Assembly: GCA_017451225.1 (NCBI GenBank)
Contig: JAFSPZ010000001.1
Span: 1-38,348, forward strand
Direction of reading: 5' to 3'
DNA length: 38,348 bases
Origin: Muribaculaceae bacterium
GTDB lineage: Bacteria; Bacteroidota; Bacteroidia; Bacteroidales; Muribaculaceae
In this document: piece by piece, positions 249-23,807 of the stretch
How positions within the stretch are numbered: the stretch's first letter is position 1
Layout: every line of letters starts with the position of its first letter
Program-made: the position numbers and the translations under genes
The notes under the pieces: generated by a model
Databases searched by the model: none
What the model was told of the DNA's origin: nothing
The model's input: only the letters and a program-made list of their open reading frames with translations

Positions 249-1739
249 ATGATTGACGTTAACCAACTCACAGAACTTATCTCGGCTTTCCGTGTCGAGA
301 CAGAAAAGGAATCTATCTCGCCCGAGACAGTCGGCAAGATACTCCAAGACATCACCGACCTGCTCGCCACCGCATCGACGGACGCGGAGCGTCAAATCCT
401 CGATGACTGGAAAGCCATGTTGTCGCAGTTCTATGTCGTCTATGACGTGGCGGATGCCAATATGCCCGACCCGCAGAACATGTTCCTGCGGTTGAAGGCT
501 CGCAACCTAGGCAACGGCAACTCCTATTCATCGTCGGTGCCCATCGCTGGAGCAACCGACATGAAAGCAGGAGCGATGACGGCCACTCACGTTCAGACCA
601 TCATGGCCCTGCAAGCTGCCGTGAGCCAACTGCGTTCCTCGGTCACATCGTTGCAGACCGCAAGCAGTCAGCATGGCAACCAGCTGTTCATCATCCAAGC
701 CGCAGGCTATGTCGTGACCGGCATAGCCCAGGGAAATCCTCACTCGTCGAGGGTGAACCTGCGGATCACCCAGCACGACGTGCGCACGGGTGAGGACTTC
801 GTGTTTGACGGCAGCACCTATCTCACTGGCGCAACCAATGAGAAAGCCGGTGTGATGACAGCCCAACAATGCAACGCGCTGAATGTCGCCAAGACCGACA
901 TCACCGCACTTCAATCCGCCATGCGCAAGGTGCAGGGCGCAGGGTGCGTCGTGGATGGCGCGACCGTGTTCCACATCGCCACCGACAGAATTGGCATCAT
1001 GCTGTTCGGCTACAACCTCGCCACTGGCGAGCGAGAGGTGGAATTGCAGCAACTCTACCTCTCGGCAGCCTCCGAGTATGGCGCAGGAGTGATGACCGCC
1101 CGACAGGTCAAAAGGCTCAACGAGCTTTATCAGGCGGTGTTCGGTTCAAGCAACAACGCCACCTCGTTCTTCAACTTCGGCATTGAAATCGGCGAGGGAA
1201 AGAGAGAACTCTTTCTGAAGCACGCCGTCAAGTTGGTCGAACTCGGCTATGTGCCGTACCTTTTCCGCTATTCGCGCAAGCGTAACCGCAAAATCGACAA
1301 TGAAGGCATCAAAGGCCACGGCGATTTGCGCAAAGGCTGGAATGTCGTCGGCAAAGGCGAGACCATACAAATCGGCAACAACGGCCAGGTGAGCATCAAC
1401 AAAATCGTGTTTGAACACGAGGAGTACAACGACGAGCAGATGCAGAGCATGGCGCAGTTCCAGAGCGAGGCGAAGTTCTTTGTCGCCGACAAATACGACG
1501 AAGCCATGGGTATAAGGTATGTGCCATTCGGCAAGAACCGAATCAACCTGCACGTGAAGATAAACAACGAGTACCAGCTGCGCAAGGTGCGCTTGCAGTA
1601 CGGCATCGCCTTCGCCTCGTACCGTGCGGGCAAGCGGGAACTGCTCGACAAGACACGCCTTGTCACGCCTATTGTGCCGTTCCACATCGCCAACGTGCCG
1701 TTCCGCAACGGCGGCTACCGCTGGGTGTTCGAGCGATAA
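249..1739 (+). CDS. Phage tail fibre-like structural protein
   Basis: This 496-residue protein is probably a tail fibre or minor tail protein. Three copies of a short motif are visible: IAGATDMKAGAMTATHV near residues 99-115, LTGATNEKAGVMTAQQC near 192-208, and LSAASEYGAGVMTARQV near 271-287. Such (G/A)AT-x-x-KAG-x-MTA units recur in fibre proteins of Bacteroidetes phages. Between repeats are beta-rich segments, and the C-terminal 200 residues form a separate, basic, beta-rich region ending GGYRWVFER. There is no signal peptide. The ATG at 249 is chosen because it lies 28 bases after the promoter box; the longer reading from 192 would begin upstream of the transcript start. It is first in a rightward series with the holin, amidase and spanin. 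Host-binding is inferred, not shown. Confidence 0.75.
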   Translation: MIDVNQLTELISAFRVETEKESISPETVGKILQDITDLLATASTDAERQILDDWKAMLSQFYVVYDVADANMPDPQNMFLRLKARNLGNGNSYSSSVPIAGATDMKAGAMTATHVQTIMALQAAVSQLRSSVTSLQTASSQHGNQLFIIQAAGYVVTGIAQGNPHSSRVNLRITQHDVRTGEDFVFDGSTYLTGATNEKAGVMTAQQCNALNVAKTDITALQSAMRKVQGAGCVVDGATVFHIATDRIGIMLFGYNLATGEREVELQQLYLSAASEYGAGVMTARQVKRLNELYQAVFGSSNNATSFFNFGIEIGEGKRELFLKHAVKLVELGYVPYLFRYSRKRNRKIDNEGIKGHGDLRKGWNVVGKGETIQIGNNGQVSINKIVFEHEEYNDEQMQSMAQFQSEAKFFVADKYDEAMGIRYVPFGKNRINLHVKINNEYQLRKVRLQYGIAFASYRAGKRELLDKTRLVTPIVPFHIANVPFRNGGYRWVFER

Positions 1740-1893: not shown

Positions 1894-2382
1894 ATGGATT
1901 TTTTCGTAGAAACGCTCAAAAACGCATCACTCCACATCCATGCCGTGTGGCTTGCCATCGCATACGTTGCCGTGATACTGGCAATGGCCGTCGATTTCAT
2001 CGCCGGACTGCGAAAGGCGAAAATCGCTGGCAAGGTCACAACAAGCAGGGCATTGAAAATGACCACCGAGAAAGCAACCAAGTACTTTCTCCCTATGTTG
2101 TGCCTCTCCTGCATTGACGTTCTGACTTCCGTTGTCCTGCCAGCACCGTTTTTTACGCTGCTCATGGGCGCGTTCAACATCTTCTGCGAATGGAAGTCGG
2201 TGCTCGAAAGCACCCACGACAAGCAGGAGTTGCGCGAGGCAGCCAACACCTTCAACGTCATTGTCAAGAACAAGGACGACATCGCTGGCATCATCATGCA
2301 AGCGATGGAGATGATGGAGAAAAAGCAAGCCATCGAGAGTAATAACAAGAATATCAACCCCCAAACAACCGAAGAAACATGA
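1894..2382 (+). CDS. Phage holin-like membrane protein
   Basis: This 162-residue protein starts MDFFVETLKNAS and has a first membrane segment near residues 15-35 (VWLAIAYVAVILAMAVDFIAG), followed by a basic loop (LRKAKIAGK) and two further hydrophobic stretches near 70-105, then a soluble charged tail. The VDFIAGLRKA pattern followed by K-rich loop and later membrane segments resembles the toxin-secretion/phage lysis holin family (Holin_4 type, D-x-x-x-G-x-x-KA). Holins make lesions in the inner membrane that let the endolysin reach peptidoglycan. The gene is just upstream of the amidase and putative spanin in one rightward unit, and its TGA overlaps the ATG of the next gene (ATGA). Its sequence similarity is judged by eye only. 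Confidence 0.7.
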   Translation: MDFFVETLKNASLHIHAVWLAIAYVAVILAMAVDFIAGLRKAKIAGKVTTSRALKMTTEKATKYFLPMLCLSCIDVLTSVVLPAPFFTLLMGAFNIFCEWKSVLESTHDKQELREAANTFNVIVKNKDDIAGIIMQAMEMMEKKQAIESNNKNINPQTTEET

Positions 2383-2990
2383 AGAATAAGACATTCATCA
2401 ACATCCAGCCCCAGGAAGTCACCGAGGGTGGCGAGCGGTCGGTGCGCTACAAAGGCAGCGACGGCAAGCTGCATGACATCACCGCCAAGCAGAAGCTGCC
2501 AGCACTCTCCATCGAGGAGAAAAGAACGTCGGTCAAAATCACTGTCAATGATTTACAGACCTCGGTACTAACCATCAATGAGTTCCTGATGAAATTTCAA
2601 GGAACGAAGTTTGCCGACTTCCAAATCATCAACGCTAGTTACACGTCATCGTCGGCAAACAAGATCTATTTCGCCAACAGCATCAAGGGCACGTTCAACT
2701 ACTACTATGACCTCGGCAACTCGGTCGTGGAGTTCCGTAACGGAAACACCGTGCTTGACCAAATGTCACGCAGTGATTTCTCGTCGGACATGGCGGCTGT
2801 CAAGGCGTTCTTCGAGCGCACCATCGCCAGCATCATCGACCAACTCACGCCGTACTACTTCTTCTACTTCATGAAGAACGCTGGCATGGTTATCAAGTCA
2901 TGCCGATTCACCGCAGTAGAGCAGCACGTCATCGTGGCCAAATCCGACGGCACTAGAACTGACCTCGGTTCTCTCAACCGCAGTTATTAA
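2379..2990 (+). CDS. Shared-N-terminus array protein 1 (unknown phage protein)
   Basis: This 203-residue protein is the first of three tandem genes sharing an N-terminal module of about 35-40 residues: FINIQPQEVTEGGERSVRY, KGSDGKLHDIT. The rest, from about residue 45, is unrelated to the other two: a hydrophilic region with NDLQTSVLTINEFLMKF, aromatic-rich YYYDLGNS and a C-terminal basic part. There is no signal peptide or membrane segment. Start ATG overlaps the holin stop in ATGA, so it is translationally coupled. Lying between holin and amidase in a late operon, it may be a virion-attached decoration or fibre protein in which the shared N-terminus docks to a common partner. The function is not recognised; that interpretation is inference. 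Its N-terminal DNA is the most diverged of the three copies. Confidence 0.8.
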   Translation: MKNKTFINIQPQEVTEGGERSVRYKGSDGKLHDITAKQKLPALSIEEKRTSVKITVNDLQTSVLTINEFLMKFQGTKFADFQIINASYTSSSANKIYFANSIKGTFNYYYDLGNSVVEFRNGNTVLDQMSRSDFSSDMAAVKAFFERTIASIIDQLTPYYFFYFMKNAGMVIKSCRFTAVEQHVIVAKSDGTRTDLGSLNRSY

Positions 2991-3010
2991 CCATCAAACA
3001 AGTTTGAATT

Positions 3011-3463
3011 ATGAAGAAGAAATTCATGAACATCAGACCGCAGGAAGTCACCGAGAACGGAGAGCGGTCAGTCCAGTACAAGGGCAGCGACGGTAAGATG
3101 CACGGCATCGCACCAGCTGGCAATGGCAGTGACACCGCCCAATCGAACATCGTGCTTGAAGTCAATTTTGCCGACGACGGCAAAGCGTTCACCGAAAGTG
3201 AACTGATTGACTATCTAACACAGTTCATGAGCGGCAAGTGCATTATCTGCATTTCCGACAACAACTGGGGCACGCAGAACGAGCGTCGCGTCGCTCTCGT
3301 CACACGTGCCAAAGGCTTCGAGGTCGTTGACGGAAGCATCGTCATCGGCAACTCGCTTACTTTCGAACTTTCAAGCCCTTCGTCTTTCGGCGACCTCGAC
3401 GAAGTTATGTTCCTCAAACAGCAGGACGGCAGCTTTGAGTTGTCTCACTATTTCAACAAGTAA
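3011..3463 (+). CDS. Shared-N-terminus array protein 2 (unknown phage protein)
   Basis: This 150-residue protein opens with the same module as its neighbours (MNIRPQEVTENGERSVQYK, GSDGKMHGIAPAGNG). From about residue 45 it changes to an unrelated mostly beta sequence with VLEVNFADDGKAFTESELI, a CIICISDNNWG stretch and a C-terminal FLKQQDGSFELSHYFNK. It is 20 bases after array protein 1 and 3 bases before array protein 3. Its first 120 bases are close to those of gene 3, with a block of about 53 identical bases at roughly 3060-3112, while the C-terminal regions show no resemblance. That contrast is what recombination or duplication within the shared 5' part, followed by replacement of the 3' part, would give. 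Function unknown. Confidence 0.8.
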   Translation: MKKKFMNIRPQEVTENGERSVQYKGSDGKMHGIAPAGNGSDTAQSNIVLEVNFADDGKAFTESELIDYLTQFMSGKCIICISDNNWGTQNERRVALVTRAKGFEVVDGSIVIGNSLTFELSSPSSFGDLDEVMFLKQQDGSFELSHYFNK

Positions 3464-3466
3464 GCT

Positions 3467-4054
3467 ATGAAAAAGAAAGTCATGAACATCAGACCGCAAG
3501 AAGTCACCCAAGGCGGTGAGCGGTCAGTCCAGTACAAGGGCAGCGACGGTAAGATGCACGGCATCGCACCCGCTGGCAACGGCGGCAGCACCGTCCAATC
3601 GCAAGACGTGCATCTTAAGGATGCCTTCGTCATCTACCGAAATAACTTGGCACTGCTAGGCCAAAGCGACCAAGTCGTCATCTACAAGATGAACGATTGG
3701 GTAAGAACGGAAGTCGATGTCGACACGCTCATGCAAGCACTGGAGCAGAACCCATCGCAGCCAATCCTTATACAATTAGAGTCAATGGAAGAAGGCTTCA
3801 ATGTGGTGGCAAGAGTAATCAGCCTTGCATTGAGCCAAAACGAGGAAGACGAATCTTATTCGGCTTCGGTTATTTGTCTCCAATGGTGGGCTTACGAGGG
3901 TAATGTAGTGGATATTTTCAATGTTGTCCTCGAAAAGAATGAGCAAGGCTCCACCATTGAGTTTATCCCACAGGCATTTGCAATAGGTAACGATGATTCA
4001 GGCAATGGTCAAATCGCTAGCGGCACAGAACTTGGAGGCAATGGAAAGTTATAA
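3467..4054 (+). CDS. Shared-N-terminus array protein 3 (unknown phage protein)
   Basis: This 195-residue protein has the N-terminal module MNIRPQEVTQGGERSVQYK, GSDGKMHGIAPAGNGGS, followed by a third, different C-terminal region: DVHLKDAFVIYRNN, an acidic helix-prone part (DTLMQALEQNPSQPILIQLE), ICLQWWAYEGN and a Gly/Asn-rich tail. No signal peptide is present. The last 14 bases overlap the amidase start at 4041. As with the two upstream genes, size and placement fit a small virion accessory or a lysis-linked protein, but I recognise no family. The shared module is rich in polar beta-type residues and ends in a Gly-rich hinge in genes 2 and 3, which suits an anchor joined to a swappable domain. 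Confidence 0.8.
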   Translation: MKKKVMNIRPQEVTQGGERSVQYKGSDGKMHGIAPAGNGGSTVQSQDVHLKDAFVIYRNNLALLGQSDQVVIYKMNDWVRTEVDVDTLMQALEQNPSQPILIQLESMEEGFNVVARVISLALSQNEEDESYSASVICLQWWAYEGNVVDIFNVVLEKNEQGSTIEFIPQAFAIGNDDSGNGQIASGTELGGNGKL

Positions 4055-4658
4055 AAACAAAGTAGTCATACTCGGCACGGCGCACGGCAGCAACGTGCCG
4101 GGGAAATGCTCGCCCGACAAGAAGTTCCGCGAGTATAAGTTCAGCCGTGAAGTCATCAAGCAGCTGAAGCCGCAACTCGAAGCGCTCGGCTTGCTCGTCT
4201 TTGTCGATATGCCAGGCGACGAGGTGCCACGCCCAGGCAACACCGAACTTTCTCTCCGTTGCCGGTACGTCAATGGAATATGCTCAAAGTTCGGCACGCA
4301 GAACTGCGTCTATGTGAGTATTCACGTCAATGCCGCAGGTTCTGACGGGCAGTGGCACACAGCACGAGGCTTCGCGGTCTATGTGGCACGCCAATGCTCG
4401 GCGGCGAGCAAGCGGCTCGCAAAATCCTTTTGCGAAACCGCTATCGCCATGGGATTGCGCGGCAACCGCTCCATCCCCAAAGAGCATTACTGGCAAGCCA
4501 ATTTCTACGTTGTAAAGAACACCGCCTGCCCTGCGGTGCTGACCGAGAACTTGTTCCAAGACAACCACGACGACGTGGATTTTCTCGCATCACCAGAGGG
4601 CAAGGCGAAGATCGTAGAACTCCATCGCACCTGCATCGCTAAACATTTTGGACTATGA
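4041..4658 (+). CDS. N-acetylmuramoyl-L-alanine amidase (phage endolysin)
   Basis: This 205-residue Amidase_3-type enzyme cuts the amide bond between MurNAc and L-Ala of peptidoglycan. Zinc ligands are visible as H15 (LGTAHG), E31 (REYKF) and H95 (VSIHVNA), with the catalytic E169 in VLTENLF. The catalytic domain fills the protein, with no separate wall-binding domain and no signal peptide, so export to the wall would depend on the holin. The ATG at 4041 is chosen because the family begins a few residues before VVILGTAHG; a longer reading from 3993 would only add the shadow of array gene 3. It overlaps array gene 3 upstream and the putative spanin downstream (ATGA), forming a compact lysis cassette. 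Confidence 0.9.
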   Translation: MESYKNKVVILGTAHGSNVPGKCSPDKKFREYKFSREVIKQLKPQLEALGLLVFVDMPGDEVPRPGNTELSLRCRYVNGICSKFGTQNCVYVSIHVNAAGSDGQWHTARGFAVYVARQCSAASKRLAKSFCETAIAMGLRGNRSIPKEHYWQANFYVVKNTACPAVLTENLFQDNHDDVDFLASPEGKAKIVELHRTCIAKHFGL

Positions 4659-5206
4659 ATGCACTCTCACTCGCTGCAACCACGGCAATGCTTGCTGTGG
4701 TATTGCTCGCGTCGTGCCACTCCAAAAAGGAAGTCACGGCTACCACGAAAGAGCAGTACGACATCGAGACGGCTGGCTCAATCTGTACTGCAACCGACGA
4801 GCGGTTGCAGTGGTTGAGCCGCTTATCGCTCGACATCGACAGCTTCGAGGTGGTGATACCCACACGCCATTTTGCTGAAATCGGCAAGATGGCTGGTGAC
4901 ACGGCGATGGATCTGCCTGAACAGTTTGCCCTGTCCGCAAGCCAACCTCGCCCTGGCTCGGTTGTCCTGCGAGGCAAACACGCACGATTGGGCAAGGCCG
5001 ACATCGTTCAGCGCAACGCTGCGCGTTGCACTTCACAGGTTGACACACTGTCGGCTCACCGCTCAATCGACAAGGCTGACCATTACGCTCGTGACAACGT
5101 GGGCATCATGAAGCCCCCCGATGTGACGTGGTGGCCGTGGCTCCTGCTCACAGGTCTGCTTGTGGGTTCCATTATCATCATTTGGCTGAAAGAAAGAGGT
5201 AAATAG
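4655..5206 (+). CDS. Putative one-piece spanin (lipoprotein with C-terminal membrane anchor)
   Basis: This 183-residue protein has a lipoprotein signal, MNALSLAATTAMLAVVLLASC, with lipobox LLASC at residue 21, a periplasmic middle part of about 135 residues, and a C-terminal membrane helix (TWWPWLLLTGLLVGSIIII, about residues 158-178) ending in the charged tail KERGK. An outer-membrane lipid anchor and an inner-membrane helix in one chain is the plan of unimolecular spanins, which join the two membranes and fuse them in the last step of lysis of Gram-negative hosts. The gene follows the amidase with an ATGA overlap, where Rz-like genes are expected. The first two Cys outside the lipobox (residues 44 and about 129) could form disulfides. 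Spanin identity rests on topology and position, not sequence similarity. Confidence 0.65.
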   Translation: MNALSLAATTAMLAVVLLASCHSKKEVTATTKEQYDIETAGSICTATDERLQWLSRLSLDIDSFEVVIPTRHFAEIGKMAGDTAMDLPEQFALSASQPRPGSVVLRGKHARLGKADIVQRNAARCTSQVDTLSAHRSIDKADHYARDNVGIMKPPDVTWWPWLLLTGLLVGSIIIIWLKERGK

Positions 5207-6419
5207 TTTTTTCATTATTGAAGTTTTTAAGGTTAATTGGGTAAAGGCTTTGCCGTGAGGCACGGCCTTTACTGCTTCAAGGTGTAAACACATGGCAACC
5301 GACCCCACAAACCCGCCCTTGACACAATGCAAGCATTGCCAATTTGCCCAACCCCACACCCCGATGTGGGCGGCGTTCCGGACTGGCTCGGCATGGCGGC
5401 GATGAGCTTTACGCTACGGACACCGGCTTACGGCTCACTACATCAGTCGGGTATCGAGGCGGCAAGCCGTTTCGACACCCGATTTCGCCACCGCCAAACC
5501 CGCGCACTCGGCTCTTATCGGTCGCTACTATTGCGCACCGCGTCTCATTACGACATCGAAAGTGCCACGCCTTCGGCTTGTATGCCTCTCTATTGACGGC
5601 GTTAGGAAGCGCATTAAGTCTGCCTCGTTACATCGGGTATCGGTTCGACAAGTCTCACTGACACCCGATGGTTTTCCTCTATGTCAGACACAATGCTCGA
5701 CAGGTCGTTCCGTAACGCCTATGGTTCGGCAAGGGCACACTCAATGCTCCAATCGTCTTGTGCTCCATTACCGCTCCCTGCAAGCCCAGTGCTCTCGCTG
5801 CGCTCGGGGATTGTCGGTGGGGTGAGCCTATCCGAAGTCCTCCACTATGTTCGTCGCACGCAATGCATCTCACCGCCCATTGAACACTCGCCCACATCGC
5901 CTAATCACGAAATTGAGCCTTGAAGCGAGTTCGAGGCACGATTTCGTCAGAAAAGCGGAATCGACAAGCGTGGGTGAAAACCGATACTCCGTGTCGGTTT
6001 CACTCACGCACGTCAGCCTCATCACCGCACATTCCGCTCGGTCGAAAAGGCAATTTGCGAAAGCGAGGAAGAGGGTGGTCGGGGGGTCTTTGCAGACAGC
6101 AACGGGGCGCAGCCCCGTACCCCACAAAATGCTGTAAAACAGCCTTTTGACTTTTTCAACTTTGGAAATTTCGCACGTTTTTTCAAAACTTCTCCTAAAT
6201 TTAACCAAGTAACTTGCTGATATAGGTATTTTTGAGCCTCTTTGAGGGCAAGAGAACGAAAAACACCTAAAATATTGTTGTTCAGTGAAATAGTGATTTT
6301 ACATATCATCGAGGAACCCTCGCCACCCTCACAATAGAAAATTACTTGCCGTCGCTGTCTTTTACCGCCTCAATCGTAGTGCCGAAATTTGCACAACATC
6401 ACCAATAAAAACATCGACA
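5207..6419 (+). other. 1.2 kb hairpin-rich region without convincing genes
   Basis: No open frame here has a recognisable protein. The stretch to about 6125 is GC-rich and carries a series of hairpins on the same strand as the late genes. Examples: GTAAAGGC/GCCTTTAC at 5241-5272 with inner CCGTG/CACGG; TCGGGTATCGA with TCGACACCCGA at 5447-5482; CATCGGGT/ACCCGATG at 5632-5670; ACGAAAT/ATTTCGT at 5907-5947 enclosing GCCTTGAA/TTCGAGGC; a GTGAAAACCGA/TCGGTTTCAC arm pair at 5974-6003; and ACGGGGC/GCCCCGT at 6102-6118. A small hairpin GCTGT/ACAGC near 6130-6143 followed by T-rich sequence may end a transcript. After about 6140 the base composition turns AT-rich up to the tape measure gene. This could be a long structured RNA, a cis-acting DNA site, or decayed sequence; the data do not decide. 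Confidence 0.5.
6379..6394 (+). promoter_or_regulatory. Possible promoter box with dyad before the tape measure gene
   Basis: GAAATTTG at 6384-6391 differs from TAnnTTTG at one base and is framed by GTGC (6379-6382) and GCAC (6391-6394). It sits 26-41 bases before the ATG at 6420. A better -7 match, TATTTTTG at 6227-6234, lies further upstream. Either could start a tape measure transcript. Confidence 0.35.
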
Positions 6420-9400
6420 ATGAGCAACATAAACAGTCAAGCAACCGTCAACCTGACCGTGAACGGTCAGCAACCCCTCCAAGTCCTGCAAATGCTGAAG
6501 CAGCGTGCAATGGAGTTGGAGAACGCCATCGCTAAAGCGGCTATGGCAGGGAACAAAGTGGAGCTACGCAAACTACGCAGGGAGTTGAGCGACACCAAGC
6601 GGCAAATGCGTGAGATAGAGACAAGCACCCAGCAGGTCGAGCGAGTAATGCTACGCCTCGACCGAGCCACGCCCAAAGAGTTGAACAAGACCTTGCAGAC
6701 CTTGAACCGACAACTCGAATACATGGAACGTGGCTCTGCGGCTTGGAACGCACACGTGGCTAAAATCCAGCGTGTAAAAGCCGAACTCGCAAAGGTCAAT
6801 GCGGAACTCCGAACGCAGGAGTCGTTCTGGACCCGCTTCAATCGTAAACTCAACGATTGGCAGACATCGCTCATGGGCATCGCCGCTTTGGTCACCGGCC
6901 TTGTCATGGCAGGACGCAAAGCGGTGAACTCCTATGCCGAGATGGAAGAAGAAATCGCCAACACCATCAAGTACACAGGCATGGCTCGTGACGAGGTGGT
7001 GGCGATGAATGATTCATTCAAGGCGATGGACACCCGTACCGGGCGAGACAAGCTCAACGAGCTGGCGCAGGAAGCAGGACGCTTGGGCAAGAACACCAGG
7101 GAAAGTGTTCAAGGCTATGTCGAGGCAGCCGACATCATCAATGTGGCATTGGTGGACTTGGGCGAGGGAGCGACCCAAGTCATCGCCAAGCTCACCAACA
7201 TCTTCGGTGTCGAGCAGATACTCGGCACCAAAGACGCAATGCTCGCTGTCGGCTCCACGGTGAATGTCCTCTCGCAGAACTGTACCGCGGCGAAACCCTA
7301 CCTTGTGCAGTTCGCCCAACGCATGGCTGGTGTGGGCGCACAGGCGAGAATGACAATCCCCGAAATCCTTGCCTTCGCCGCCACCCTTGACGCTAACGGT
7401 CAAAAGGTGGAGATGTCGGCATCGGCAATGTCGCGCCTCATCATGATGTTGTTCCAAAAGCCGCAGGAGATAGCAAAGACCGTCGGGCTTGACGTGGAGA
7501 AGTTCACCGAGACGCTGAACCGCAGCACCAACGAGGGCGTGCTGATGTTCCTCGGCAAATTGCAAGAGATCGGTGAGGCTGACGCGCTCGCCGCACTCTC
7601 GCCCTTGTTCAAGGACTTGGGCATGGACGGCATCCGCATGGCCCAGGTCCTCGCCACGCTCGCCACCCACCTCGACATGGTGAAGTGGGAGCAGAAAGAG
7701 GCGAACAAGGCATTTACCGAAGCCACGTCGGCGACCCGTGAGTACAACATCTTCAACAATACAGCCCAGGCAGGTATCGACAAGGCACGCAAGCACATCC
7801 ACGAGCTCGCCATTGAGTTAGGAGAGAAACTCCTGCCTCTATACAAGCATATCATGACGAGCGGAAGCGCGATGCTGCGTTTCCTGAATGTGCTTGTGAA
7901 CTTCTTTATCCAGTACAAGGGAGTGATTGTGACCTTCACGGCATCGTGGATTGCCTACAAGGTGGCGGTCAACGCCAGCAATATCGCTTTCAAGGCTCAT
8001 TACTACTGGCTCGTCATCACAGAGGGAGCGCAGAAGTTGCTCGGAACGGCAACGCTGGCTCTTAAAATCGCCTTCTACGCTCTCACGGGGCAAGTCGAAA
8101 AGGCAAAGGCGGCATACACCGCTTTCCACCTTCTCACCAAGACCACGCCGTGGGGCATCATCCTCGCGGCTGTCACCGCATTGGGCGTGGGCATCTACAA
8201 TCTCTGCACACGCACCGACGAGCTGACGAAGAAGACCGACGAGGCCGTCAAGGCAGCCAAAGGCTACAATGCCGAAGCCGTGAAAGAGCAGCACGAGCTT
8301 GACGTGCTTTTCGGCAAGCTCAAAGGTGCCGAAAAAGGCACGAAGGAGTATGAGGACGCGAAACGCGCCATCATCAACCAGTACGGCAAGTACCTCTCCG
8401 GTCTTATCAACGAGAAAGGCGAAATCCTCAATCTTGAAGCCGCCTACAACCGCTTGACACTGGCGGTGAGGCGGTCAGCCCAAGAGCGAGGCATCGCGGC
8501 AGCGCGTGAGCAGATAGACCAGGAATATTACAAGTCTCTCGCTTCGGGCTTGACAGACCTGCAAGCTGCGCTCGAAAGTGCCGGCGCTACCACAAGGGAC
8601 GCAGCCGAGATTGTCGCAGCCGTCAGTTCTGCGATGGCGGCTGGAAAGCCCATTTCGCAGAACTATATCAATAGAATCAACGGCTACTCCAAAGGTATCG
8701 AATGGCGGTTGTTGCCCGACTGGGTGGGCGGCAGCCAGCACCCTTTCTGGGGCGGTGACAGCCGAAAGCCGGCTCCCATCGTCAATCGTATGTATAATGC
8801 ATACGAGACCCACCGCAAAGGGCTTGCGGCTCTTGACGCTATGGAAGACGGCGTTTCACCATTGAGGCACATAGACAACTATTACCTCAAAGGCACCATC
8901 GGGCAGCTGGAGAAGATAGTGAAGAACAATCAGGCGGGCAACGCCATCGTGTTCATCGAAGGCACGCAGCAGGGAGAGTACAAGGAAGTCTCGGTTGCCG
9001 AAGCCAAGCAGCTCCTCACGCAGTACCGTGAGGAACTTGCCTACCGTGGCGCCAGCAAGACCGATGCCACTGGCTTGAACCTCGACACCACTGGCGGCAC
9101 CGGCGGTGCGGCTGGCGGCGTGGGCGGCGCAACGCCCAAGACCACCAAAGGCGGCGGTCGTGGCGGCTCGCAGAAGTCCGAGGACAAGTTCAAAGCGGAG
9201 AAAGACTGGCGAGAGTACCAGGAAGCCTTGAACCGCATCGCCTACGCCACTGGAGAGAAGAACTACGAAGAATACACCAAGCGTATGCTGGAGATAGAAC
9301 AGCAATTCTATGAGAAGCAGCTTGCCCATGCTGACCTCACCGCCAATGAGAGAATAACCATCCAAGCACAGCTTTATGAGGTGTTGCGAAAGCAGACCGA

Positions 9401-11222
9401 AGCCGCCAACAAGAAGACCATCGAGGACGAGAATCGGCTGTATGCGCTCCGAAAGTCGGAAACGCAGCAGCAGTACATCGACGGCTTGTTGTCGACCGAG
9501 GCGTACAACGAGCAGATGCAGCGCATCGAGCTTGAACACCTCAAAGCCATCAAGGACATCTACAGTGACCAGGCGTTCGCACCCATCACCGAGTGGGAAG
9601 AAACCAAGCGGCAAGCCGCAGAAATGATGCAGACGCAGTTCAACGGCAACGTCGACCTGCTCAACAGACCCGTCATTGACGCTCACGAGCTGACAAAGGC
9701 GGGCTGGAAAGGCAATCCGCAAAGCGAGGGAGAGGCCACCGCAACGGTGTACTCATCCCAATACGGCATCAAGGATGCTTCGGGAACGGTAAGGGAGATA
9801 TTGGTGACTCCAATTCTCCCTGATGGCTCAGTCCTTACAGAGAAAGAACTGAAAGATTACGTCTACAAGACACTGCAAGGTGCAGAGGACATTCTCGAAG
9901 CCGATGACAAAGGATTGGTCATCGCCGTGGACGTAAGTGCTGACGGCAAGGCTGGCGAGAATCTGCACACCATGCAGGAAGCCTACTATTCGACAAAGCC
10001 GAATGTAGACGAGAAGGCATGGGCTAACTTCCTCGCTGCCGAAGAAGCATATCAGAACAAACTGATAGCCGAGCAGCAGAAGAAGCAACGTGAAGCAGAG
10101 GAAACCGAGCAGAAGCACCAGGCTGAACTCAAACGTATCAAGGACGAGTATTTCGGCAACAACGCAGCCGAAAACAAGGCTCTCTACGACGAAGCCTTGT
10201 CGAACCTTGATAAAGTGTACCAAGCCGAGGTCGCGGCGGCTGGCGACAATGCGGCAGAGAAACTGCGCATTGATGAAGCATACGAGAAAGCCAAGCTCGC
10301 CTTGAAGAAGAAGTACAATCAGCTGGGCGGCGAGGAAGACCGCAACGCCATGCAGAAGTGGAACCAGGATCTGCTCGACTGGCTCAATGGCGACGGCGGG
10401 CAAGCCGTCACCAAGAGCGTAGAGACACTGACATCGGGAATGTCAAGTATCTTCTCGCAGCTCTCCTCACTCGTGCAAGCCGAGATGGAGATTGAGACCG
10501 CTGCCGTGGAGAAACGCTACGAGCGTGAGGTGTCCATGGCAGAGGGAAACAAGTACAAGACCAAGCAGCTTGAAAAGCAGAAGCAGAAAGAGATTGCAAA
10601 GGTCAAGGACGAGGCGAATAGGAAACTGTTCGCCATGCAGGTAATCCAAGCCGTGGCGCAGACGGCGACCGCCGCCTTGAACGCCTACTCATCGGCTGCC
10701 GCTATTCCTGTGGTGGGCTACATACTCGCGCCTATCGCCGCAGCGATGGCCATTGCCGCTGGCGCAATACAGATTGCGACCATCAAGAAGCAACAGCAAG
10801 CCAGCACCGCGCAGGGCTATGCCCAGGGCGGTTTCACCAAGCAGGGCGCAGTCGACGAGGTGGCAGGTGTCGTTCACGCAGGAGAGTGGGTGGCAAGTCA
10901 GAAACTCCTTGCCTCGCCGGTGGCTCGCCCACTCATCGAGGCGCTGGACTATGCGCAGCGGACAAACACAATCGGCAGTCTCCGTCAGTCCGATGTGAGC
11001 CGCACGATTACTGCTCCCGCAGTACTGGCGCAGTCGCAAGCCCCGACGGTCATTGTTCAAGAGAACAAGACACTGCGTGAAACACTCGCTCGCTTGAATG
11101 AAAGGCTAAATGAGCCTTTCGTTACAGTGAACACCGTAACTGGTGATCTCGGTATCAAGCAAGCGCAGGACGATTACCAGCGACTGATGAACAATAAATC
11201 CCCGAAGAATAAACGCAAGTAG
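6420..11222 (+). CDS. Phage tail tape measure protein
   Basis: This 1600-residue protein sets tail length and takes part in DNA ejection. It begins with a long coiled coil (about residues 20-130), then a TP901-type tape-measure core (about 170-475, including YAEMEEEIANTIKYTGM and the AAKPYLVQFAQRMAGVG, IPEILAFAATLDANG stretches), followed by hydrophobic helices near 480-600. A Gly-rich linker lies near 890-918 (GGTGGAAGGVGG). A second coiled-coil part is interrupted near residues 1070-1190 by a compact-looking segment with EGEATATVYSSQYGIKD and LVTPILPDGS. A hydrophobic Ala-rich stretch lies near 1410-1455, then a QGYAQGGFT motif common near tape-measure C-termini. A siphovirus- or myovirus-like long tail is implied. 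It comes directly after the structured gap and before the moron genes. Confidence 0.92.
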   Translation: MSNINSQATVNLTVNGQQPLQVLQMLKQRAMELENAIAKAAMAGNKVELRKLRRELSDTKRQMREIETSTQQVERVMLRLDRATPKELNKTLQTLNRQLEYMERGSAAWNAHVAKIQRVKAELAKVNAELRTQESFWTRFNRKLNDWQTSLMGIAALVTGLVMAGRKAVNSYAEMEEEIANTIKYTGMARDEVVAMNDSFKAMDTRTGRDKLNELAQEAGRLGKNTRESVQGYVEAADIINVALVDLGEGATQVIAKLTNIFGVEQILGTKDAMLAVGSTVNVLSQNCTAAKPYLVQFAQRMAGVGAQARMTIPEILAFAATLDANGQKVEMSASAMSRLIMMLFQKPQEIAKTVGLDVEKFTETLNRSTNEGVLMFLGKLQEIGEADALAALSPLFKDLGMDGIRMAQVLATLATHLDMVKWEQKEANKAFTEATSATREYNIFNNTAQAGIDKARKHIHELAIELGEKLLPLYKHIMTSGSAMLRFLNVLVNFFIQYKGVIVTFTASWIAYKVAVNASNIAFKAHYYWLVITEGAQKLLGTATLALKIAFYALTGQVEKAKAAYTAFHLLTKTTPWGIILAAVTALGVGIYNLCTRTDELTKKTDEAVKAAKGYNAEAVKEQHELDVLFGKLKGAEKGTKEYEDAKRAIINQYGKYLSGLINEKGEILNLEAAYNRLTLAVRRSAQERGIAAAREQIDQEYYKSLASGLTDLQAALESAGATTRDAAEIVAAVSSAMAAGKPISQNYINRINGYSKGIEWRLLPDWVGGSQHPFWGGDSRKPAPIVNRMYNAYETHRKGLAALDAMEDGVSPLRHIDNYYLKGTIGQLEKIVKNNQAGNAIVFIEGTQQGEYKEVSVAEAKQLLTQYREELAYRGASKTDATGLNLDTTGGTGGAAGGVGGATPKTTKGGGRGGSQKSEDKFKAEKDWREYQEALNRIAYATGEKNYEEYTKRMLEIEQQFYEKQLAHADLTANERITIQAQLYEVLRKQTEAANKKTIEDENRLYALRKSETQQQYIDGLLSTEAYNEQMQRIELEHLKAIKDIYSDQAFAPITEWEETKRQAAEMMQTQFNGNVDLLNRPVIDAHELTKAGWKGNPQSEGEATATVYSSQYGIKDASGTVREILVTPILPDGSVLTEKELKDYVYKTLQGAEDILEADDKGLVIAVDVSADGKAGENLHTMQEAYYSTKPNVDEKAWANFLAAEEAYQNKLIAEQQKKQREAEETEQKHQAELKRIKDEYFGNNAAENKALYDEALSNLDKVYQAEVAAAGDNAAEKLRIDEAYEKAKLALKKKYNQLGGEEDRNAMQKWNQDLLDWLNGDGGQAVTKSVETLTSGMSSIFSQLSSLVQAEMEIETAAVEKRYEREVSMAEGNKYKTKQLEKQKQKEIAKVKDEANRKLFAMQVIQAVAQTATAALNAYSSAAAIPVVGYILAPIAAAMAIAAGAIQIATIKKQQQASTAQGYAQGGFTKQGAVDEVAGVVHAGEWVASQKLLASPVARPLIEALDYAQRTNTIGSLRQSDVSRTITAPAVLAQSQAPTVIVQENKTLRETLARLNERLNEPFVTVNTVTGDLGIKQAQDDYQRLMNNKSPKNKRK

Positions 11223-14094: not shown

Positions 14095-15330
14095 CTATGA
14101 ATCAGTTGGAGTGTCTTCGTCATCTAGTGAACCCTTGAACTGCTTGACCCCATCATGGACGAGCATACTATGCTCTTGGATGTAGCGGTTGGTGGTACTC
14201 ACATCGCTATGGCGTGCCTGGTCACGTGCCACAACCACACCCTGCTCGTTGGCAAGGTCTCGAATACCACTATCTTTCAATGAATAGAACTGGTATTCAT
14301 CGCTCCAGCCCAATGCCTCACGCATCTTCTTCCATCGGCGGTTGTACTGGTCGGCATTGCATCGCTCAGGAGCAGGACGGAAATCTTTGCCAAAGAGGAA
14401 ATAAGATGATGGATGAGCAAACACATTCAACTCAACCATAAGCTTCAGCACGGTATCATTGAGAGCGACCTTTGCGCTCTTTTTGTTCTTGCTGAAGTCC
14501 TCGCTCACAAAGATGGTCTTATCTTTGAGCGATATGTCGCCAACTTTTAGATAAGAAAGTTCGGTTGGGCGAATGAAAGTATAGTATTCCATGTAGCAAG
14601 CCAGCAGGAAGCATTTGTCTTCTCGCTTCAAATACTGACGCATTTGTTTGAGCTTAGTGGGCGACAAGTCCTTGCGGTGTTTCTTCTTCTCGTCAAGGGC
14701 AGGGATGTGGTCAACAGGATTGCTCTCGATGTACTTGCGAGAGACCATGAACTCGGCGAAGCTGTAGCACCAGCCACGATAGTTGTTGCGTGTTCGCTCG
14801 GTCACTCCACGGTCAAGGTAGAGCCAATCCAAGTAGTCGTTAATGAAAGCGCCATCAAACTGATAGGCGTACTTGATTGGCACTACACAAGAGGAGAGAT
14901 ACTGGTTGAGGATGTTCACTCGTGACTGATAAGTATGTTTGGTTTTGGACCTCGCTTTCTTATCAACATATTCCATATATCTTTCTAAGACATCTGATAA
15001 TAAAGTAAACCCTCGGCTCTCTTGGGTGTTCACCCAGGGATTCCAGCCACCACGTAATTGATGGGTGACAGTCTCGATTATTTCCGCCGCTTTTCTTCTT
15101 CGCTCGCTCTTTTTTGGAATGCCATCGAGCATGTATTTCTTTCGTCTCATTTGACCAGTTGCGGGGTCAAAAGCGAAGAAATCGACGAACCAATTCTTAC
15201 CTTCATGAAGTCTCGGATAGGTATATCCGAGCATTTCAGCAGCTGTGCTACATTTTTTTTGATACGACATTTTTTTAACATTTTTTGTCGGAACTTCCGG
15301 TTCGTCTAAAAAATGCAAGCCTGTAATCAT
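14095..15330 (-). CDS. Tyrosine-type phage integrase
   Basis: This 411-residue site-specific recombinase catalyses integration and excision at the tRNA-Ser site. A DNA-arm-binding N-terminal part (HEGKNWFVDFFAFDP) is followed by a SAM-like core-binding domain (about residues 105-210) and the catalytic domain. Catalytic residues visible: R254 in FIRPTEL, a Lys in the beta-hairpin near 284, K352 in the LKDSGIR box (in place of the usual His, as in many Bacteroidetes phage integrases), H374 in QARHSDVS, and nucleophile Y383 in TTNRYIQ. The protein is complete. A second Met at 15270 (MSYQKKC) is an equally likely start. The gene points away from the tRNA and meets the tail gene tail to tail. Confidence 0.93.
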   Translation of the reverse strand: MITGLHFLDEPEVPTKNVKKMSYQKKCSTAAEMLGYTYPRLHEGKNWFVDFFAFDPATGQMRRKKYMLDGIPKKSERRRKAAEIIETVTHQLRGGWNPWVNTQESRGFTLLSDVLERYMEYVDKKARSKTKHTYQSRVNILNQYLSSCVVPIKYAYQFDGAFINDYLDWLYLDRGVTERTRNNYRGWCYSFAEFMVSRKYIESNPVDHIPALDEKKKHRKDLSPTKLKQMRQYLKREDKCFLLACYMEYYTFIRPTELSYLKVGDISLKDKTIFVSEDFSKNKKSAKVALNDTVLKLMVELNVFAHPSSYFLFGKDFRPAPERCNADQYNRRWKKMREALGWSDEYQFYSLKDSGIRDLANEQGVVVARDQARHSDVSTTNRYIQEHSMLVHDGVKQFKGSLDDEDTPTDS

Positions 15331-15413: not shown

Positions 15414-15503
15414 TGGCGGAGAGGACAAGATTCGAACTTGCGGTAGAGTTACCCCTACGGCAGTTTAGCAAACTGCTGGTTTCAGCCACTCACCCACCTC
15501 TCC
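15414..15503 (-). tRNA. tRNA-Ser (anticodon GCU), likely phage attachment site
   Basis: The 90-base gene has the acceptor stem GGAGAGG/CCTCTCC, discriminator G and encoded CCA. The anticodon arm is GCAGT-TTGCTAA-ACTGC giving anticodon GCU for AGC/AGU codons. The T arm has GTTCGAATC, and there is a long variable arm as in type II tRNAs. Its 3' end faces the integrase and phage genes, as expected for an attB in the 3' part of a tRNA. The gene is complete, so integration restored it. Confidence 0.95.
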
Positions 15504-23090: not shown

Positions 23091-23807
23091 TTACTGCATG
23101 AAGCTCATGCTTTGCATTGCGCAAGAGAGAGGCGTGCTGATTAATCCCAAGATGATGGAAAAGATGATAGCCCATGCTCCATAGTCGCTCATCTTTTGAG
23201 CTTTCTCGTAATTGCCCTCTCTGTAGTGTTTCTTGGTGAGGATGGCAAAGACAATACCCACGATACCTGCAGGAGCACAGCACAGTACTGTGGTGATGAT
23301 TGCCCACACTAGGTTGGTGGGAGGGCATTTGGGAAGCTCCTCTTGGTTAAGTGGTGTGACATAGCCTTGAGGCTGCTGTGCCTCAAGAGGATAGCTTACT
23401 TGAGGCATTTGTGGTGGAGTTTCTTGCTCCATGGGTTGCTCTTGAGGCATCTCGGGAGGATTGCTCTCTTCCTCGGCAACAACTTCCACATCATCGTCAA
23501 CCTCTGGTTCTTGAGGCATCTCGGGTGATGCCTCTTGTTGGTCGGGTTGTTCCTGAGGCATTTCTTGAGTTTGCTCCTGTGGCAGCTCGGGTGCCTGTTC
23601 CTGTGGCATGTAGGCCACATGGTTGACGGCTGCTTCGCGAGCTCGTTGCAGCATGTCGTTAAGTTCGGGAACAGCAGTTATTTTCACCCAGTCGGGCAGC
23701 CCGCTGTGCCATACATAAGCCGACTCGTCAATCCCCATCGCTGCCATCTGCTCGAGCGACATGGGACCTTCTTGTTTTCCATTGTAATTTATCCAGTATT
23801 GCCTCAT
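23091..23807 (-). CDS. GYF_2 and CD225/dispanin domain membrane protein
   Basis: This 238-residue protein has an N-terminal GYF_2 domain (residues 1-50, YWINYNGKQEGPMSLEQM, WHSGLPDWVKI). A Pro/Gln/Glu-rich low-complexity linker follows (about 68-160, repeats of MPQEQ and EMPQE), then a C-terminal CD225-type region with two membrane helices (PPTNLVWAIITTVLCCAPAG, IVGIVFAI, and SDYGAWAIIFSIILGLIS). GYF_2 is a bacterial relative of a Pro-rich peptide binding fold, and CD225 is the family of eukaryotic IFITM proteins, which affect membrane stiffness. Role in bacteria unknown. It has its own promoter box TATCTTTG at 23837-23844 and begins the operon with DUF2752. Confidence 0.85.
   Translation of the reverse strand: MRQYWINYNGKQEGPMSLEQMAAMGIDESAYVWHSGLPDWVKITAVPELNDMLQRAREAAVNHVAYMPQEQAPELPQEQTQEMPQEQPDQQEASPEMPQEPEVDDDVEVVAEEESNPPEMPQEQPMEQETPPQMPQVSYPLEAQQPQGYVTPLNQEELPKCPPTNLVWAIITTVLCCAPAGIVGIVFAILTKKHYREGNYEKAQKMSDYGAWAIIFSIILGLISTPLSCAMQSMSFMQ

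Follow-up and report, generated by a model that had tools for sequence, protein, structure and literature searches.

Three adjacent prophage genes open with the same short N-terminal module and continue into C-terminal domains, or heads, that share no detectable sequence similarity; comparison of related prophages shows that these heads are exchanged at the module by recombination. We propose that the module is a virion-docking tag bearing exchangeable binding heads on the particle—a reading to which we give a probability of roughly 0.48. If so, it would most likely follow, on a small scale and in several copies, the way receptor-binding proteins combine an anchor with a variable head. The window, meaning the whole stretch of 38,348 nucleotides that was analysed, comes from a Muribaculaceae-like genome (2.28 Mb, 70 contigs), probably of a gut bacterium; it holds the end of a prophage on which the integrase lies, and carries the following features:

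249..1739, forward strand: putative tail fibre, so labelled from its repeats and neighbours; N-terminal motif AFRVETEKESISPETVG
1894..2382, forward strand: holin (Phage_holin_4_1; Pfam E 8.7e-5, 23.0 bits, cut-off 22.2)
2379..2990, forward strand: gene 1, module plus head A
2379..2483, forward strand: module copy 1
3011..3463, forward strand: gene 2, module plus head B
3011..3115, forward strand: module copy 2
3467..4054, forward strand: gene 3, module plus head G
3467..3571, forward strand: module copy 3
3062..3114 and 3518..3570, forward strand: 53-base identical runs, gene 2 versus gene 3
4041..4658, forward strand: endolysin, N-acetylmuramoyl-L-alanine amidase (Amidase_3; Pfam E 2.7e-21; PHROG 435 endolysin, E 9e-34)
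4655..5206, forward strand: spanin-like protein with a lipoprotein-like N-terminus and a hydrophobic C-terminal segment, read by eye from sequence alone
6420..11222, forward strand: tail tape measure protein (PhageMin_Tail, E 1.3e-17)
14095..15330, reverse strand: integrase, prophage end (Phage_integrase, E 3.6e-16)
15414..15503, reverse strand: tRNA-Ser beside the integrase, marking the prophage end

The holin also matches PHROG 20732 (unknown function) at E 2e-27. Neither the putative fibre nor the spanin-like gene gave an informative match in Pfam or PHROG; the product of the spanin-like gene, which combines a lipoprotein-type N-terminus with a hydrophobic stretch near its C-terminus, resembles a single-protein (u-)spanin. 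The reading frames of holin and gene 1 share 4 bases, and the end of gene 3 runs past the likely start of the amidase gene (4041, chosen from the sequence). Past the prophage end lies a chromosomal gene (23091-23807, reverse strand) with GYF_2 and CD225 domains.

The shared N-terminal module

The block common to genes 1-3 reads MKKKVMNIRPQEVTxxGERSVxYKGSDGKMHxIAP. When the first 40 residues of gene 3 were searched against the whole genome, gene 2 matched at 92% (E 2e-20); for gene 1 the figure was 72% across 32 residues (E 6e-12). Both matches are far beyond chance. At the DNA level genes 2 and 3 are the closest, their longest identical run being 53 bases; the module of gene 1 is more diverged, with ungapped shared runs of 15 and 11 bases. 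Beyond the module, no pair among the three genes gave a blastp match at E<=10. An earlier, sequence-only reading of this DNA had described three open reading frames at 2379, 3011 and 3467 with a common N-terminal module, about 53 identical bases in genes 2 and 3, divergence after the module, no signal peptides, and a position between holin and amidase. Each of these points was borne out: the frames lie where they were placed, the proteins start with MKKK followed by polar residues (read by eye) and have a negative mean hydropathy, and the array overlaps its neighbours at both ends. The shared start that it gave as 35-45 residues long also stood, with its extent now refined to ~33-35 residues.

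The module is under purifying selection, with dN 0.11 and dS 0.74 (15 copies, all pairs pooled). The heads are under purifying selection as well, and dN was lower than dS in all eight ortholog pairs computed.

AlphaFold models of gene 1 (9 sequences) and of a 322-residue module protein from a related locus (L026) suggest how the module may be built; both models are weak, with module blocks at pLDDT 28-57. For gene 1, the best model reached a mean pLDDT of 63 (the other four, 42-52), with predicted module strands at residues 12-16, 19-25 and 31-33, a stretch below 50 at residues 35-59, and an alpha/beta head from ~60 to 198 that includes one stretch above 90. For the L026 protein (best mean 54, others 48-53), module strands are predicted at residues 5-14, 18-25 and 30-36 with pLDDT 28-42; its head C is fair (~residues 50-190) and its head B unusable. 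A fold search with the models gave no known-fold match that stood out. A module integral to the fold of the heads would have counted against the sequence-only reading; in both models it instead appears as a small strand-rich unit set apart by a low-confidence stretch.

Distribution of modules and heads

The close form of the module occurs in 16 distinct loci, comprising 22 genes and one headless stub after removal of duplicates, and wherever the host is known it belongs to a single genus. Six of these loci (G009, G035, G036, G049, G087 and G088) form a group of close relatives. The window's own array is also present in IMG/VR (L001 and repeats), and that copy is left out of the count; IMG/VR contig L070, taken from its equal length to be the same record as G088:C50, is counted once. 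The module was found in 12 of 200 near-relative genomes and in 13 of 397 genomes of a family sample, the latter all within the window's own genus. Within that genus, 14 of 101 genomes match at E<=0.01, including the remote form in G094 and an unconvincing match in G014, which was dropped as a carrier (34-codon frame, E 3.5e-4). Three of 393 genomes in an order sample matched, namely the window's own genome and two weak matches (E 0.005 and 0.008) that were dropped. IMG/VR yielded 6 loci, among them the window's own array, what is apparently the G088 record, and a single locus with the remote form. Six named genome records carry the module (five Muribaculaceae, one Prevotellaceae), and a ruminant is named for five of them. 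Searching with the module alone, as had been proposed, showed several different C-termini attached across genus genomes and IMG/VR; the 50,697 phage records searched contained no match. That several head classes sit on the module also answers the concern that it might belong to only one full-length family.

Seven head classes, A to G, occur singly or in tandem. Head A is found in window gene 1 and L027; seven further loci (L070/G088, L071, G009, G035, G036, G049 and G087) have a diverged version of it. Head B is found in window gene 2, in L025 and as the C-terminal domain of the L026 protein, whose order is module-C-B; head G occurs in window gene 3, L025 and L026. Head C, besides L026, is present twice in tandem in L030, in the order C-C-D, which ends with head D. 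Head E has two diverged forms, in L002 and L028, and head F occurs in L003 and L029. Most heads measure ~105-185 residues; head F has ~335. Genus-wide searches placed head A in 8 genomes, always within a module gene, and head E only in G012; for head B they gave 3 module genes plus a single decayed remnant. The head B match in G038 was considered as a module-free context and rejected, being a piece of a C-B fusion in a decayed stretch.

Comparison of eight head sets by hhalign gave a probability of at most 2.2% in every one of the 28 pairs. When columns were shuffled 25 times per pair, 6 of 21 head pairs scored above nearly all shuffles, no more than one of which came up to the real score. By eye, several heads have a short helix at the start and a hairpin at the end; a single fold common to all heads was not accepted, since no pair exceeded 2.2%. 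The heads are thus unrelated at the level of sequence, and a distant common fold is possible. Family and fold searches assigned neither any head nor the putative fibre to a known receptor-binding domain. The module proteins that lack the repeat domain described below have a pI of 4.5-6.1 in 20 of 21 cases, the exception being window gene 1 (pI 9.2).

The slot after the holin is a recurrent place for module genes. Among 18 holin matches in the 101 genus genomes, 12 are followed by a module gene, and these are all of the holins with an intact 3' end (12/12). The other six (G027:C83, G039, G012:C17, two in G079, and G034) are cut short or frameshifted: either the similarity gives out between residues 62 and 136 of the holin's 162, or the frame is disrupted. 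No module gene was seen after them. Stretches in G038:C46 (13919-14078, L098), G079:C35, G039:C45, G034:C31, G012:C17 and G027:C83 are remnants of the same prophage lineage, carrying the damaged holins and a C-B head fragment. L030 is an exception to the slot: its module gene follows a putative fibre after a gap of ~275 bases with no such holin between, as judged in a list of open reading frames of 100 aa or more. In L070, holin and module gene are kept, and the endolysin candidate (5657-6076, 135 aa) looks different from that of the window at 4041-4658.

Recombination at the module

The clearest record of exchange comes from loci L002 and L028. Positions 5097-5523 of L002, which take in head E and run into module 2, differ from L028 at 1 position in 427 bp. 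To the left, identity falls to 91.8% in the holin end and 84.4% in module 1; to the right, it is 74.2% in the rest of module 2, 56.3% in head 2 and 81% in the amidase start. The flanks of this cassette differ by 8-44%, and its two ends fall in two successive modules. Fisher values of 4e-12 (left) and 6e-60 (right) are descriptive, as the limits were set after seeing the alignment.

Loss of heads is visible as well. L025 has no gene 1, its holin/module junction is intact and both sides are 93-94% identical to the window. Between the two modules of this locus there is a single difference in 90 bases; the module preceding its head B is 94% identical to that of window gene 3 and 91% to that of gene 2. 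In L027, a headless module stub of 45 codons (1020-1139) lies between the head A gene and the endolysin, and looks like a deletion product. More generally, 13 of 15 pairs among six loci (of the 13 loci in the blastn) lose the DNA similarity that they share upstream either inside module 1 or within 29 bases beyond it, and the remaining two pairs have the same first head. The head differences observed are whole-domain replacements. With a cassette bounded by modules at both ends, a clean absence of gene 1 alongside homogenised modules, a stub and varied heads, the swap system envisaged in the sequence-only reading gains direct support.

Docking and its alternatives

Under the docking reading, a tag of ~33 residues, probably a few beta strands with a flexible linker, would fix small heads to the particle, most likely next to the putative fibre, whose gene lies immediately upstream, and the heads would vary which surface structures the particle binds. 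All genes begin with almost identical DNA, and homologous recombination between copies of the module, whether in one array or between phages, could therefore delete, add or exchange heads while the tag is kept. The common module, its various heads, their exchange at the module, the recurring slot and the purifying selection are observed; the virion location, the structure of the module and the binding of receptors or glycans we infer. Support for attachment to the virion is indirect, from repeat-rich tail-like homologues and the nearness of a putative fibre gene. More tentatively, we suggest that in this one-genus prophage lineage the ~33-residue tag might serve as protein anchor and DNA crossover site at once; a multi-slot array of small heads that are added, lost, tandem-fused and traded might then allow one particle to display several accessory binders simultaneously.

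A link to the tail is suggested by a remote form of the module. A profile of the close copies finds the module opening a 447-aa protein of NTFGNxC repeats in G094 (E 4.6e-5), directly after a putative fibre gene; "beta-helix-like", for these repeats, and "fibre" are our own labels, given without a firm family match. Once G094 was added, the profile picked up a further two genomes and an IMG/VR contig; all keep the same gene order, which in L086 runs from a tape-measure-like gene through two small genes and the putative fibre to the module/repeat gene. For one of these module/repeat proteins, a tail collar fibre PHROG came up as a weak match (E 0.005). By eye, no holin or endolysin was seen beside the repeat-protein genes of L073 and L086, and a spanin-like lipoprotein gene lies upstream of the putative fibre in L072-L074. 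Two further viral contigs have this repeat domain joined to different N-termini; the module thus occupies the place where repeat proteins otherwise carry different N-terminal parts—parts that may be virion anchors, following the general plan of receptor-binding proteins. This tail link rests on a match of 28-35 residues.

Several considerations speak for other roles. That recombination takes place at a homologous stretch is not in itself proof of docking; the heads are small for receptor-binding proteins, and in the loci read the genes that accompany a holin sit in the lysis region, both of which count against the docking reading. The proteins could stay outside the virion altogether, as late or lysogenic cargo (morons) acting in the host, with the module as an interaction or stability element. 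The holin-endolysin position with its overlapping gene ends, the lack of a signal peptide by eye and of any known virion domain, and the presence of the spanin-like gene upstream in L072-L074 as well would all agree with this; we nevertheless consider it less likely than docking, as every holin match with an intact 3' end has its slot filled, unlike optional cargo, and module genes stand behind a putative fibre in L030 and four repeat-protein loci. An N-terminal tag could also direct proteins into the particle, and contractile-injection effectors do carry N-terminal signals. The module would then be a packaging signal like the T4 capsid targeting sequence, and the variable parts would travel inside the virion and be ejected into the host, for example to block defence; the strong turnover of heads would also fit such an intracellular arms race. 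T4 IPI-IPIII, as described in PMC9026906, offer a precedent, with a short related N-terminus on divergent small proteins. The signal described there is, however, only ~10 residues long and cleaved, against ~33 conserved residues with predicted strands here, and the proteins of T4 relatives are basic, against the mostly acidic pI values given above. The remote form of the module on repeat-rich proteins behind a putative fibre also speaks against packaging, to which we give a slightly lower probability than to cargo; both are live rivals of the docking reading.

The two remaining explanations we regard as improbable. Modules might be remains of gene duplication without a docking role, left by ordinary phage mosaicism, which is general in phages and for which any homology is usable in recombination. 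Against this, the module is under purifying selection, it persists on heads that show no recognisable similarity as well as on repeat proteins, and similarity ends at the 3' end of the module in the 13 of 15 pairs noted. Least probable of all is a part in lysis, with antiholin-like proteins or partners that regulate the endolysin: holin, module genes and endolysin do overlap or nearly touch, and a module gene precedes each of the different-looking endolysins of the window and L070 types. Head A, however, occurs with both endolysin types; the second heads of L002 and L028 are only 56% identical where the holin end stands at 92% and the amidase start at 81%; Pfam and PHROG matches up to E 1 include no lysis family for genes 1-3; and the repeat-protein genes of L073 and L086 lack a visible holin or endolysin beside them.

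The statement in the sequence-only reading that no described family has this layout was too strong, in view of tailspikes (PMC10408124, PMC11414711) and T4 internal proteins (PMC9026906). For tailspikes and fibres, an anchor with an exchangeable head is established (PMC10408124, PMC11414711, PMC10684548); tailspike and tail-fibre receptor-binding proteins, including the multi-tailspike complexes of Ackermannviridae, resemble the present genes in having a conserved N-terminal part, unrelated C-terminal parts and several genes per phage, and conserved DNA around the heads has been proposed as sites of recombination, with recombination and deletion seen in engineered phages (PMC10408124, PMC11414711). 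The module genes share with this plan a conserved N-terminal part on non-homologous C-terminal parts and breakpoints near the N-terminal part. Unlike in tailspikes, the shared part is ~33 residues long and similar in every copy, most heads have 105-185 residues, most genes lie behind a holin, and the searches turned up no known depolymerase, lectin or trimer domain. T4 internal proteins (PMC9026906) are likewise small and variable between related phages, with a related short N-terminus on divergent bodies; they differ in the short, cleaved targeting signal. Domain mosaicism in receptor-binding proteins and endolysins of related phages also joins a near-identical N-terminus to a non-homologous C-terminal domain (PMC10684548); the tandem array, the differences in copy number and a cassette with both ends in modules set the present case apart. 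Tentaclins (PMC10743442) are gut-phage accessory proteins with proposed receptor binding, as we propose here; they have an N-terminal C-type lectin domain diversified by a retroelement, whereas here whole heads differ. Our literature search found no published description of this array, and what is unusual about it is the size of the tag, its tandem repetition within the lysis region, the small heads of no recognised family and the trace left by crossovers. As a natural case of the way in which phages may vary their accessory proteins, the array is unusually clean, with a minimal tag, a row of exchangeable heads and cassette ends inside the tags; if the tag does dock on the virion, it would point to a compact group of domains that bind gut Bacteroidales, which are poorly studied.

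The putative fibre has a conserved N-terminal motif of its own, LxxLIxAxRxETexxSIxPExxG (window 249-345; L066 478-580; L061 486-588), on proteins that differ elsewhere—a second anchor-like module in the same phages. It lies upstream of the module genes in 11 of 15 loci scanned. Among the four misses, L086 can be seen by eye to have the motif with a single residue changed, the fibre of L030 begins differently, and the sequences of L026 and L012 end early. Right after the module/repeat gene, L073 (9944-10174) and L086 (7724-7957) carry a conserved gene of 76-77 aa, whose product is perhaps a chaperone or a tail accessory protein.
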